From Flavobacterium sp. (GTDB taxonomy: Bacteria; Bacteroidota; Bacteroidia; Flavobacteriales; Flavobacteriaceae), in assembly GCF_017985075.1 (NCBI RefSeq), contig NZ_JAGNYF010000001.1, positions 1 to 64,000 of the forward strand: a DNA stretch of 64,000 nucleotides, written 5' to 3'. Of this stretch, positions 30,078-48,213 are shown in pieces. Position 1 is the stretch's first letter, and the number at the start of each line of letters is the position of its first letter. The notes below the pieces were generated by a model, which worked only from the letters and a program-made list of their open reading frames with translations, ran no database searches and had not been told where the DNA came from. A program made the translations under genes and the position numbers.

Positions 30078-30110
30078 TTGGGTAAAAGGTTAAGGGTTTT
30101 TGGTAAAAGG
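30078..30110. repeat. Left inverted-repeat arm of the four-helix-bundle element
   Basis: Begins at the base after the nupG stop. Its core GGTTAAGGGTTTTTGGT is the exact reverse complement of the right-arm core. Confidence 0.85.
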
Positions 30111-30137
30111 TTTTAAAAGATTATTTTTTATTTCAGA

Positions 30138-30545
30138 ATGAGAAATTTTAGAGAATTAGATATTTGGAAAGACAGTAGATTGCTTGTGGCTGCTACTTAT
30201 ATGATTATGAAGCAAATGCCAGACGATGAAAAGTTTGGATTGACTTCACAAATAAAACGTTCTGTAATATCTATTCCATCTAATATTGCTGAAGGATGTG
30301 CTAAAAGTTCAGATAAAGATTTATGCAGATTTTTAGAAATTAGTTTAGGTTCTTGTTTTGAATTAGAAACCCAATTCATGTTGTGTTCAGATATAAATTA
30401 TTTAGATGAAAATATAGTTTCAAAACAAATTGAATCCATTCAAATACTTGAAAAAAGAATAGCCTCTTTTTTATCTTATTTAAAAATTAACCGAATACCA
30501 AAAACCCTTAACCCAATACCCAACACCTTAAACCCATATAAATGA
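30138..30545 (+). CDS. Four-helix-bundle protein (S23 / 23S rRNA intervening-sequence protein family)
   Basis: 135 residues. It has the family start [14 protein letters not shown] and the hallmark [24 protein letters not shown], then [14 protein letters not shown]. The fold is a four-helix bundle that oligomerises. Relatives occur inside rRNA intervening sequences and, as Avd, as accessory proteins of diversity-generating retroelements, where they bind nucleic acid. The last 16 or so residues ([17 protein letters not shown]) are simply the translated heptamer repeat of the right arm and probably not part of the fold. The stop overlaps the thyA ATG by 4 bp, coupling the two. Confidence 0.9.
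30491..30537. repeat. Right inverted-repeat arm, heptamer-phased
   Basis: Heptamers ATACCAA, AAACCCT, TAACCCA, ATACCCA, ACACCTT, AAACCCA run in register (30496-30537). Positions 30491-30523 mirror the left arm. The segment AACCCAATACCCAA also occurs inside aroA near 63686-63699. Confidence 0.85.
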
Positions 30546-43810: not shown

Positions 43811-43913
43811 TTGAAAATTTCACATTTTTCGCTGATTTCAATTTTAAGTTTATTTCGTGTTTTCATTTTTTTTGAAAGCAGTATAATCATTTTAAAATAT
43901 AATTCCGTTGAAA

Positions 43914-44924
43914 ATGTCAAATTCACCAGAAGTACAACAAATTAAAAGCAACATACAACTAGCCATTAAAGAAAGAATTTTAGTTCTTGACGGCGCTATG
44001 GGTACTATGTTGCAACGCAATAAATTTGAAGAAGAAGATTTTCGAGGGGAACGATTTAAAGATTTTCCACATCCATTAAAAGGAAATAACGATTTACTTT
44101 CTATTACACAACCAGAAGCGGTAAAGGCAGTGCATCGTTTGTATTTTGAGGCTGGTGCTGATATTGTAGAAACCAATACGTTTTCTGGTACTACAATTGG
44201 TATGGCCGATTATCATATGGAAGATTTGGTGTACGAATTAAATTACCAATCCGCTAAAATTGCTAGAGAAGTTGCAGATGAATTTACGGATAAGCCTCGT
44301 TTTGTTGCAGGTTCTATAGGGCCAACTAACAGAACGGCTTCTATGTCGCCAGATGTAAATGATCCTGGTTTTCGTGCCGTAACTTTTGACGACTTACGAA
44401 TTGCATACAAACAACAAGTTGAAGCTTTAATTGATGGTGGTTCGGATGTACTTTTGGTTGAAACTATTTTCGATACATTAAATGCAAAAGCGGCACTTTT
44501 CGCTATTGAAGAAGTTAAAGAAGAAAGAAATATTGATATTCCAATTATGGTTTCAGGAACTATTACAGATGCTTCTGGAAGAACTTTATCTGGACAAACG
44601 GTAGAAGCTTTTTTAATTTCTATTCAGCATATTCCTTTGTTAAGTGTTGGTTTTAATTGTGCTTTGGGAGCCGATCAGTTAAAACCCTATTTAAAACGCT
44701 TGGCACAACATACACAAGTAAATATTTCGGCACATCCAAATGCGGGTTTGCCAAATGCTTTTGGAGAATACGACCAAACACCAATGGAAATGCAGGCTTT
44801 AATTCGGGAATATTTACAAGACAATTTGATAAATATAATTGGAGGTTGCTGCGGTACAACTCCAGAACACATTAAATTAATAGCAGAAGTTGCAGCAGAA
44901 TTTAAGCCAAGAAAATCAGAATAA
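43914..44924 (+). CDS. metH: Methionine synthase, homocysteine-binding part
   Basis: 336 residues, equal to the N-terminal Hcy module of cobalamin-dependent methionine synthase. It activates homocysteine through zinc: [10 protein letters not shown] at the barrel start, [13 protein letters not shown], the Cys of [16 protein letters not shown] and the paired Cys of [16 protein letters not shown]. In this lineage MetH is split, and the remaining domains are encoded by the gene at 45104. The ATG at 43914 is preferred over the TTG at 43908. Controlled by the SAM-I riboswitch. Confidence 0.94.
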
Positions 44925-45103: not shown

Positions 45104-48100
45104 ATGTCAAAAAAAAATAAAATAAATTTACAACTTTCAGGTTTAGAACCACTCTTTATTAATGAAGAATCTGTTTTTGTGAATGTTGGTGAACGAACCA
45201 ATGTAACAGGTTCTCGTAAATTTCTTCGTTTAATAAAAGAAGAAAAATACGACGAAGCGCTTTCAATAGCACGTGAGCAAGTAGAAGGTGGCGCCCAAAT
45301 TATCGACATTAATATGGATGAAGGAATGTTAGATGGCGTTTATGCTATGACAAAATTCCTAAATTTAATTGCTGCCGAACCAGATATTGCTCGTGTTCCT
45401 GTAATGATTGATAGTTCGAAATGGGAAATTATCGAAGCGGGTTTAAAAGTCGTACAAGGAAAAGCGGTCGTAAATTCAATTTCACTTAAAGAAGGCGAAG
45501 CGGTTTTTATACATCACGCCAAGTTAATTAAGCGATATGGTGCAGCAGTAATTGTTATGGCTTTTGATGAAGTCGGACAAGCAGATAACTACCAACGTAG
45601 AATTGAAATATGTAAAAGAAGTTATGATATTTTGGTCGACCAAGTCGGTTTTCCTGCTGAAGATATCATTTTCGATCCCAATATTTTTCCAGTTGCAACT
45701 GGAATGGACGAGCATAAATTAAACGCTTTAGATTTTTTCCAAGCAACAAAGTGGATTCGTGAAAATTTACCTTTTGCGAATGTTTCAGGTGGTGTTAGTA
45801 ATGTTTCATTCTCCTTTCGTGGAAATGATAAAGTCCGTGAAGCGATGCATTCCGCTTTTCTATATCACGCCATTCAGAATGGGATGACTATGGGAATCGT
45901 AAATCCAGAAATGTTAGAAATTTACGATGAAATAGACGCTGTTTTATTAGAACACGTTGAAGATGTTCTTTTAAACAGAAGAGAAGATGCTACCGAACGT
46001 TTATTAGATTTAGCCGAAAGTTTTAAAGGCGATTTCAAGGTAAATGAAAAAGCAATAGCCGAATGGCGAAATGGTTCAGTTCAAGAACGATTAACGTATT
46101 CGTTAGTAAAAGGATTTGATGAATTTATTGAAATTGATGTGGAAGAAGCCAGATTAACCGCCAATAAAGCCATTGAAGTGATTGAAATCAGTTTAATGAA
46201 TGGAATGAACGTGGTTGGTGATTTATTCGGAAGTGGAAAAATGTTTTTACCTCAAGTGGTAAAATCAGCACGAGTTATGAAAAAAGCGGTGGCGTATTTA
46301 TTACCATTTATTGAAGAAGAAAAAGATTCAACCGCTTCGTCTTCTGCTGGAAAAGTATTGATGGCAACCGTTAAAGGTGATGTTCACGATATCGGAAAAA
46401 ATATTGTATCAGTAGTTTTGGCGTGTAATAATTTTGAAATTATCGATTTAGGAGTAATGGTTCCGCCAGAAAAAATTATAGATGCTGCCATTAAAGAAAA
46501 CGTAGATATTATCGGTTTAAGCGGATTAATTACACCTTCTTTAGACGAAATGGTGTATTTGGCCAAAGAAATGGATAAGTTAAACATCAAAATTCCAGTA
46601 ATGATTGGTGGCGCTACCACTTCACGCGCGCATACAGCTGTTAAAATTGCTCCGGAATATGCTGCAACTGTAGTACACGTTAATGATGCATCAAGAGCTG
46701 TAACTGTTGCTTCGAATTTATTGAATACGGAAACAAAAATGTCGTATTCAATTGCGTTACGCGAGGAGTACGATGCATTACGTGAAGGCTATTTAAACAG
46801 AGCAAGAGAGAAAAATTTCTTAACGATTGAAGATGCTCGTAAAAATAAATTAAAGATAGATTGGAACAATTACGAAGCTATAAAACCTAATTTTATTGGT
46901 ACGAAAACAGTTGAGGTAGCATTATCCGATTTAGTCGATTTTATCGATTGGACACCGTTTTTTCAATCTTGGGAATTATATGGAAAATATCCTGCTATAT
47001 TAACTGATGAAATAGTGGGTGAACAAGCATCAGATTTGTTTAAAGATGCACAAAATATGTTGTCAAAAATTGTCTCTGAAAAATGGTTTACAGCTAAAGG
47101 AATTTTAGGAATTTTTCCCGCCAACACCATAAATGATGATGATATTGAAATCAGCCCCCCAACCCCCGAAGGGGGAGCTCCCGACTTTGTGGATAAGTAT
47201 GGATGGGAAACTGCAGGCTCTGAATTGTATAGCGTTTTAAAAGAAAAAGCAAAAGAAATGCGTAACAAACCCACTGAAGCAGAAAAAATGCTTTGGAATG
47301 TTTTGAGCAATAAAGGAATTGAGAATTATAAATTTAGAAGACAGCATATTGTTGGTGAATATATTGTAGATTTTATTTGTTTAGAAAAAAGATTAATTAT
47401 AGAAGTAGATGGTGCTGTCCACAATGATTTAGCACAAATCGAACACGACAAACAAAGAACCGAATGGTTGGAATCTAAAGGTTTCAAAGTAATAAGATTC
47501 ACAAATAATCAAGTCCTCTCAGATTTTTTCAATACAATAGAAAAAATTCGTAAAGGATTAAACACAATCTTGGTAGCTCCCCCTTCGGGGGCGGGGGGGG
47601 CTTTTCTTACACTAAGACAACAATCTCAAAAAACCGCTGGTGCACCTAACATCGCATTAGCTGATTTTATTGCGCCAAAAGATTCTGGAGTTCAAGATTA
47701 TATGGGTTGTTTTTGTGTTACTACTGGTTTTGGCGTAGATGAGAAAGCAACAGAATTTGAAAAACAATTAGATGATTATAATGCCATTTTAACCAAAGCT
47801 TTAGGTGATAGATTAGCAGAAGCTTTCGCAGAATATTTACATTTAAAAGTTCGAAAAGAAATTTGGGGATACGCTTCTGAGGAACAACTTTCCAATCAAG
47901 AATTAATTAAAGAAAATTACAAAGGAATTCGTCCAGCACCAGGTTATCCAGCGTGTCCAGACCATTTAGAAAAGCCAACTATTTGGGATATTTTAAAAGT
48001 GGAGGAAAATATTGGTGTGAAATTAACTGAAAGTATGGCAATGTGGCCGGCTTCTTCAGTTTCAGGATATTATTTTGCACATCCAGAAAGCAAGTATTTT

Positions 48101-48205
48101 GGGTTAGGAAAAATAAAATCAGACCAAGTAGCAGATTACGCAAACAGAAGAAATATATCAATAGAAACAGCAACTAAATGGTTAGCACCTAATATTGCAG
48201 ATTAA
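45104..48205 (+). CDS. metH: Methionine synthase, folate/cobalamin/activation part, with in-frame DUF559 insertion
   Basis: 1033 residues. The pterin-binding barrel (about 15-290; [19 protein letters not shown]), B12 cap (about 310-400) and B12 domain (about 410-560) carry cobalamin ligand His428 in GDVHDIGKN. The activation domain runs to the C-terminus ([37 protein letters not shown]). Residues 684-833 interrupt the activation domain between NDDDIEI and [10 protein letters not shown]. They are encoded by a 450-bp inverted-repeat element carrying a DUF559/Vsr-like nuclease domain with Asp756, Glu767 and Asp769. Without it the protein would be about 883 residues, normal for this half. Whether the enzyme stays active is unknown. 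Confidence 0.93.
47153..47179. repeat. Left terminal inverted repeat of the metH element
   Basis: AGC, six C, AA, CCCCCGAAGGGGG, AGCT. It is itself partly palindromic (CCCCC-GAA-GGGGG), so each end can form its own hairpin. It is translated as SPPTPEGGA. Confidence 0.85.
47575..47602. repeat. Right terminal inverted repeat with G8 tract
   Basis: AGCTCCCCCTTCGGGGGC followed by eight G and CT; reverse complement of the left repeat with AA replaced by CC/G variation. It is translated as APPSGAGGA. Confidence 0.85.
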
Positions 48206-48213
48206 AAATAGTT

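Follow-up and report, generated by a model that had tools for sequence, protein, structure and literature searches.

A candidate homing-like nuclease element with palindromic ends lies in frame within the methionine synthase of a Flavobacterium

How does a nuclease domain bounded by inverted repeats come to lie in frame inside cobalamin-dependent methionine synthase (MetH)? The question is raised by a Flavobacterium sp. (NCBI RefSeq assembly GCF_017985075.1), in which positions 1 to 64,000 of contig NZ_JAGNYF010000001.1 (forward strand; hereafter the window, meaning the whole stretch of 64,000 nucleotides that was analyzed) hold a metH gene with an uninterrupted insert of 150 codons. A reading of the letters alone (the original prediction) had proposed a selfish element that survives in a tolerant loop. 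That proposal stands in the sense that the insert is not an ancestral MetH domain of Bacteroidota (it is missing in close relatives and found in unrelated proteins), has copies elsewhere, and is no assembly artefact (the same arrangement recurs in many other genomes). We consider it about two-thirds probable that the insert is a non-splicing, in-frame, homing-like nuclease element whose ends resemble repetitive extragenic palindromic (REP) sequences and which lives as part of the protein. The features concerned are the following:

45104..48205, + strand: metH open reading frame (ORF), the host gene; 1033 amino acids with the insert, above the TIGR02082 (metH) cut-off
47153..47602, + strand: in-frame element of 150 codons, replacing a loop of the MetH activation domain
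47153..47179, + strand: left terminal inverted repeat, 27 nt, with the CCCCCGAAGGGGG palindrome; translated SPPTPEGGA
47237..47560, + strand: DUF559/Vsr-like PD-(D/E)XK nuclease domain (Pfam E-value 6e-37 for the insert alone; AlphaFold2 model; solved matches)
47369..47371, + strand: acidic residue Asp73 of the insert (MetH D756), invariant in 28 inserts; of 110 internal hits, 109 have Asp and 1 has a gap
47402..47410, + strand: Glu84-x-Asp86 of the insert (MetH E767, D769), invariant in 28 inserts; Glu in 108/110 and Asp in 108/110 internal hits
47575..47602, - strand: right terminal inverted repeat, an inverted copy of the left, 28 nt; the last 27 nt read on the + strand as APPSGAGGA

The outer span of the insert (47153..47602) is exactly 450 nt, and the metH frame runs through it without a stop. 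Pterin-binding, B12-binding and activation domains were all matched in the host ORF, and the predicted interruption of the activation domain was borne out: Pfam matched PF02965 as two stretches around the insert, the 3' one scoring better. In a solved MetH (1k7y, which we take to be the E. coli protein) the insert position coincides with a gap between chain residues 363 and 379; this position, together with the single-copy host genes described below, suggests that the MetH fold tolerates the insert. G+C content was 31.6% in the insert body, 35.0% in the MetH flanks, 74% in the left end and 82% in the right end, with third-position values of 0.24 in the body, 0.24 in MetH before the insert and 0.17 after it. 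The codon-position G+C of the body thus resembles that of MetH, so any foreign look is limited to the ends. The idea of foreign repeats held only in part: the ends are far richer in G+C than their surroundings, but their palindrome is scattered through some Flavobacteriaceae. As a separate observation, metH seems to be split into neighboring genes, at 43908-44924 (presumably the N-terminal part of metH) and 45104-48205, and frame lengths in the same genus suggest likewise.

The insert matched Pfam DUF559 (PF04480) with 126.3 bits (cut-off 20.6), the match within MetH covering amino acids 712-819 (E-value 1.4e-35); at E-values up to 0.001 the only Pfam families matched by the insert were DUF559 and MTES_1575, with no transposase domain. 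AlphaFold2 predicted a separate nuclease domain (mean predicted local distance difference test score of 80.3) with disordered ends. Solved structural matches were 3hrl, 3r3p and 1cw0, and solved relatives of the domain include the homing endonuclease I-Bth0305I and Vsr. The motif order and the three acidic residues named in the original prediction were upheld by the Pfam match and by their invariance, and at this level the insert resembles EDxHD/Vsr-like homing endonucleases, with which it shares a catalytic domain of related type and an active site of acidic residues.

Three routes by which such an insert might be kept out of the finished protein were considered and rejected. An intein is not supported, as Pfam (E-values up to 0.001) detected no splicing (Hint) domain in MetH and 17 other host ORFs. 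A group I or II intron is not supported, as Rfam showed no ribozyme RNA around the ORF (46600-48210, E-values up to 1), returning just a snoRNA with 23.8 bits against a cut-off of 50. Ribosome bypass was set aside as well: both element ends are predicted to pair in the mRNA (z -4.0), yet the frame stays open across the nuclease.

Similar inserts recur in other genomes. Within the same family, a DUF559 match was found in 112 of 299 genomes, the open frames around the best 35 spanning 573 to 1282 amino acids and that of the 36th only 121. Within the same genus, 113 of 300 genomes had a match (E-values up to 1e-20), and the best 96 lay in frames of 354 to 1416 amino acids, the two shortest being one cut at the locus edge and one broken frame. 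These frame-length counts were made by hand, and both searches used in-frame inserts as queries, which favors such inserts in the ranking. Across the phylum, 187 of 395 genomes had a match; in named genomes 581 places were confirmed, of which the best 80 entered the host list, so that this list is a lower bound. A profile search of 156 loci (leaving out L001-L011, L025 and L081-L109, which are duplicates or MetH relatives) gave 161 hits, of which 110 were internal and in frame (frame of ≥300 amino acids with >60 on either side) and provided 109 distinct cores; among the 110, L114 and L164 are duplicates and L172 contributes both pieces of a single insert, and the counts are conditioned on open frames, so that out-of-frame insertions would escape. 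The further copies that had been expected exist outside the window's genome, where DUF559 inserts with like ends lie in frame in genes of other genomes, but not inside it, where there is a single DUF559 match. Carriage by phages or plasmids was rejected, since 6 phage and 43 plasmid records held just DUF559-type proteins of <60% identity.

The in-frame cores, with host sequence on both sides, occupy ∼20 sites in ∼15 protein families: MetH (42), LeuRS (28), RecG (10), IleRS (10), MetRS (4), DegT (3, two being pieces of one), ValRS (2), UvrD/AddA (2), UvrA (2) and six other hosts with one each. By position there are four sites in MetH, two in LeuRS and two in IleRS, the remaining hosts being counted as one each (including UvrA, though its two inserts may differ in position). 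The LeuRS, ValRS and second IleRS sites all precede the same kind of conserved motif (TTRPET/TTTPWT) and would be equivalent places in related enzymes. Pfam found a host domain together with DUF559 in LeuRS, RecG, IleRS, ValRS, MetRS, a UvrD-type helicase, PurL, HisD, CinA, a DegT-type aminotransferase, an Epimerase_2 protein, an epimerase/Polysacc_synt_C protein, an aldehyde dehydrogenase-MaoC protein, two UvrA, an amino acid kinase (which may be an N-terminal fusion instead of an internal insert) and full-length MetH. Terminal fusions also occur, at the C-terminus of HisD and the N-termini of HemD-like and guanylate-kinase-like proteins (the names HemD, guanylate kinase, IspF, RNase H, TdcB, HemW and HisH are our own assumed assignments). 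In a wider tree, eight host-unassigned hits and N-terminally fused copies, many of them from Prevotellaceae, fell on the in-frame side, so the lineage is not confined to gene interiors. Nine loci (L049-L057) in which DUF559 is followed by a hemD-like gene in one open frame stand apart from the in-frame lineage on insert trees.

Conservation of the active site was nearly complete: with Glu or Asp allowed at positions 84 and 86, 108 of the 110 internal hits retain the acidic triad, as do 48 of the 51 other hits. Ratios of nonsynonymous to synonymous substitution rates (dN/dS) were 0.03-0.12 in 15 of 16 insert pairs and undefined in the 16th, where dS was saturated; the pairs were hand-picked, mostly from close relatives, one rests on 40 codons, and several dS values exceeded 1, which makes those ratios rough and to that extent counts against our reading. 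At the level of sequence, the nuclease is under strong purifying selection. LeuRS was single in 17 of 17 insert-bearing genomes (G203 gave two matches in one frame), and the window's own genome (91% complete) had a single MetH match and no match to MetE; with the host enzymes present once, the fused proteins very probably work. A nuclease useful to the cell (for anti-phage defense, for example, or as a damage sensor) and recruited to many enzymes would also be expected to keep its catalytic residues under purifying selection, and homing endonucleases tend to decay, so that such retention goes beyond what is usual for them. The ∼15 unrelated host families, the patchy presence, and the PADLOC matches (a homing endonuclease model on top, with weaker matches to DpdF and, in a single insert, to the model of a restriction enzyme) argue against cellular recruitment, which we regard as very improbable.

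Presence of the element is patchy even among close relatives. The predicted empty sites exist among close Flavobacterium at two MetH positions, sites A and B. At site A, besides the window, the full element was found at 0 of 20 readable same-genus loci, with a remnant retaining both ends in one genome (G312), and the site is occupied in certain other same-genus genomes; at site B, an end-to-end remnant was found in L133. A MetH tree from which the insert was excluded requires 10 changes at site B and 4 at site A. This tree has 52 rows partly gathered via the insert search and is not a fair sample of occupancy; it leaves out L010, L011, L080-L082, L085, L091 and rows lacking the site-B motif, and its set excludes the MetH of L104-L109, L114 and L146-L197. 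In one tight clade (support 100/99), site B is occupied in F. cucumis and L119 and empty in G310 and G321, and the DNA of the site B left junctions differs within Flavobacterium. Some hosts carry two copies: G215 has sister copies (99/90) at A and B of one metH, both MetH sites are also occupied in L118, L227 and L239, and LeuRS of G314 has two. The copies of L118 share 81% DNA identity across the site and are near-identical in the last stretch with the right end. At LeuRS, L028 and L029 share 94% identity downstream of the insert against 61% inside it, and the insert clade L027/L029/L035/L041 was rejected on the LeuRS tree (log-likelihood difference of 101; approximately unbiased test, P = 7 × 10−5). 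That clade came from the insert tree after pairwise identities had already hinted at conflict, and the host tree held 20 of 28 internal inserts (L110, L176, L046, L047, L170 and L186 were omitted and one more lacks the motif). Either the displacement of one element by another or the transfer of a single element would produce such a conflict. Reoccupied fixed sites, patchy presence and transfer between lineages (the tree conflict being limited to the LeuRS site) are shared with EDxHD/Vsr-like homing endonucleases, and mobility of the element is well supported at the level of sequence.

Three loci deserve separate mention. For L176, a LeuRS in a Paceibacterota-labelled bin, the six most extreme pairs have similarities of 0.55-0.60 between inserts against 0.33-0.43 between flanks, a pattern suggestive of transfer between phyla. 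L122, on a contig labelled Candidatus Nitrotoga, carries a MetH that shares 86% identity with that of the window and falls inside the Flavobacterium group; the contig is probably mis-binned. In L243 (G800) the MetH frame breaks at the element's left end, possibly through sequencing error or slippage-type variation.

The two ends of the window element (47153..47179 and 47575..47602) align with 25 of 28 columns identical, two mismatches and one gap, confirming the predicted 27/28-nt inverted repeats around 150 open codons; a repeat finder gave arms of 42 nt that are 81% complementary. Their local score of 23.8 exceeded those of all 4,899 other pairs of 60-nt stretches that were sampled across the window with equal spacing (mean 7.1, maximum 21.4), the runner-up being a different inverted-repeat cassette at 30.1 kb. 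Both ends are stop-free in all six frames, and terminal inverted repeats are a property that the insert shares with miniature inverted-repeat transposable elements and DNA transposons. End matches are near-perfect in the window element and L118, and weak in most RecG inserts and several LeuRS inserts.

The window palindrome also occurs by itself. It was found in 108 copies (summed by hand) in 23 of 299 family genomes, against 5 copies in 4 genomes for a control, and G023 alone has 39 copies and zero control copies. Nuclease-free palindromes lie outside long frames, before start codons, or in frame within genes; the predicted repeat copies in the window's own genome were recovered as the exact palindrome at two further places, though both are without a nuclease. 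Palindromes without an adjacent nuclease, the end-only MetH remnants in G312 (site A) and L133 (site B), and some 23S_rRNA_IVP genes of the window's genome that likewise sit between element-specific inverted repeats would all fit a process in which mobility belongs to the ends, with REP-like palindromes copied by a host or trans-acting process and the nuclease as a passenger that has its own role, perhaps of a repair type. We judge this unlikely given the conserved triad, the low dN/dS and the excess of extra palindromes in genomes with an in-frame insert (9/34 versus 13/265 without; P = 1.9 × 10−4; counts taken by hand from two scans).

Several palindrome-bearing or repeat-like loci were observed alongside. 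L007 (own genome, C72:5366) holds a nuclease-free mini-element with two ends (SPNPSEGGEQPTLFQQTAPTPPSGAGGL) in frame in an N6_Mtase-like 525-amino-acid frame running off the locus. In L006 (1501, own genome) and L213 (G144) the palindrome directly precedes start codons within a longer shared module (CCTATT...CCCCCTTCGGGGG...ATG) that is possibly regulatory. At MetH site A, nuclease-free loops of L113, L119, L120, L122 and L123 hold GACAACC runs and sequences of the TCCAACTTCCAACTTC and TTTCGAGCGCAGTCGAG types, and with these other repeat-like sequences the loop looks like a general hot spot for repeats. The cassette at 30078-30540 of the window is a 23S_rRNA_IVP (PF05635) gene flanked by inverted repeats. 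Among the other five such genes of the genome, L249, L252 and L253 have strong own-pair repeats (22.8, 24.6 and 21.8), L250 is marginal (15.0) and L251 has none (7.8), against a background of 7-13.2 for mismatched pairs sharing an end; the window copy scored 8.0 in that test, since its right repeat falls inside the ORF tail. These cassettes are perhaps a second family of small proteins between inverted repeats.

A number of findings weigh against a mobile, homing-like element. The mean matching score of two ends belonging to one element exceeds that of ends taken from different elements (14.3 versus 11.0 in the 110 internal hits, 14.7 versus 9.3 in 50 other hits; 0 of 2000 permutations reached the observed value in each set), but a hit's own partner scores best in just 12/110 internal and 9/50 other hits and is within the top tenth in 39/110 and 30/50; the end-matching is an effect of averages. 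Insertion replaces ∼10-12 loop residues at MetH sites A and B, and no target-site duplication was seen by eye at these sites against empty relatives, the loop being replaced and variable. The insert adds only ∼28 residues before and 14 after the Pfam-matched domain, and lacks the added DNA-binding region of phage-type homing endonucleases, as these are described in PMC3943268. At each of the four sites tested, the identity of the inserts rises with that of their flanks (correlations of 0.40 for MetH_B, 0.46 for LeuRS, 0.59 for RecG and 0.97 for MetH_A), so that much of the inheritance may be vertical, and RecG inserts form one group on insert trees (98/85; Shimodaira-Hasegawa approximate likelihood ratio test 82 in the wider tree), which with their mostly weak repeats is expected of old, vertically kept inserts. 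The last two findings are also what would be seen if all copies were old tolerated inserts, now vertically inherited and no longer mobile. Against that stand the patchy occupancy within one genus, the differing site B left junctions, the LeuRS tree conflict, the near-perfect ends in the window and L118, and an active site that a merely tolerated insert need not keep; we therefore think loss of all current mobility improbable, somewhat more so than the passenger scenario.

A homing-like element would work as follows. The nuclease gene has no stop codon of its own and is set between two palindromic inverted repeats. Sitting in frame in a loop of a protein that the cell needs, it would be translated into an additional nuclease domain that folds by itself and is joined by disordered linkers rich in Pro and Gly, while the host enzyme would keep working, as the single-copy host genes suggest. 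The nuclease would cut alleles lacking the element, and repair from the occupied allele would copy it in, which is homing; occasional repair elsewhere, perhaps aided by the palindromic ends, would found a new site, and the stop-free ends would ease in-frame landing in new loops. Harm would be avoided by such landing in a tolerant loop, with no sign of splicing. The nuclease most likely acts as a homing endonuclease, and we infer that it may drive its own spread. More tentatively, and short of what we would call probable, the inserts may represent a distinct, autonomous class of non-splicing homing nucleases with stop-free palindromic ends that never leave the protein, colonize loops in essential enzymes across Bacteroidota (plus at least one Paceibacterota-labelled LeuRS) and also generate the solitary REP-like palindromes of these genomes; such a class could be the kind of engine behind in-frame palindromic repeats such as Rickettsia palindromic elements (RPEs).

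Elements in coding genes are usually held to need splicing, as inteins and introns do, or to be short and passive like RPEs, which are short Rickettsia elements not known to have an enzyme of their own. The insert described here has an apparently active nuclease, seemingly stays in mature, essential, single-copy enzymes, and occurs in the same loops across many genera. It is a possible, testable engine for in-frame entry of palindromic repeats into genes and a possible source of new protein domains, and its hosts serve as a natural catalogue, showing which loops of aminoacyl-tRNA synthetases, MetH, RecG and others can take in ∼150 additional residues. Among the openly licensed papers listed on DUF559 (judged by title and the start of the abstract), endonuclease domains in LeuRS, in-frame or palindromic inserts, homing and inteins, we found no description of such elements.

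Known systems each share part of this arrangement. Like inteins, the insert lies in frame in conserved genes, is sporadically distributed and has an endonuclease (PMC1635734, in part); unlike them, it has no splicing domain, and its ends are predicted to be disordered. RPEs are likewise palindromic DNA in frame in unrelated genes, but they measure ∼150 bp with no enzyme mentioned in the parts of the reports available (PMC3733652, PMC10969869), whereas the insert is ∼450 bp, encodes a nuclease and occurs in Bacteroidota, and is by description set apart from the short, enzyme-free Rickettsia element. As in systems of REP sequences and REP-associated tyrosine transposases (RAYTs), palindromes surround the gene of a DNA-acting enzyme and also occur as solitary copies (PMC3733652, in part), but the enzyme is a DUF559 nuclease and not a RAYT transposase. 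Structure 3r3p (I-Bth0305I, EDxHD family) is named a “mobile intron protein”, whereas no intron is present here; the full I-Bth0305I is long and multi-domain (PMC3943268), whereas the insert lacks such a part and is translated within its host protein. Nuclease-encoding inserts in coding genes are also represented by the qnu insert in mitochondrial cox2 of Campsomeris (PMC5374615, in part) and by nrdA, split by a homing endonuclease gene with enzyme function reportedly retained (cited in PMC5374615); in-frame inserts also enlarge COXII in ciliates and others (PMC5374615). In the cox2 and nrdA cases the gene is split into pieces, whereas in the Flavobacterium metH the frame is continuous and one fusion protein is expected.
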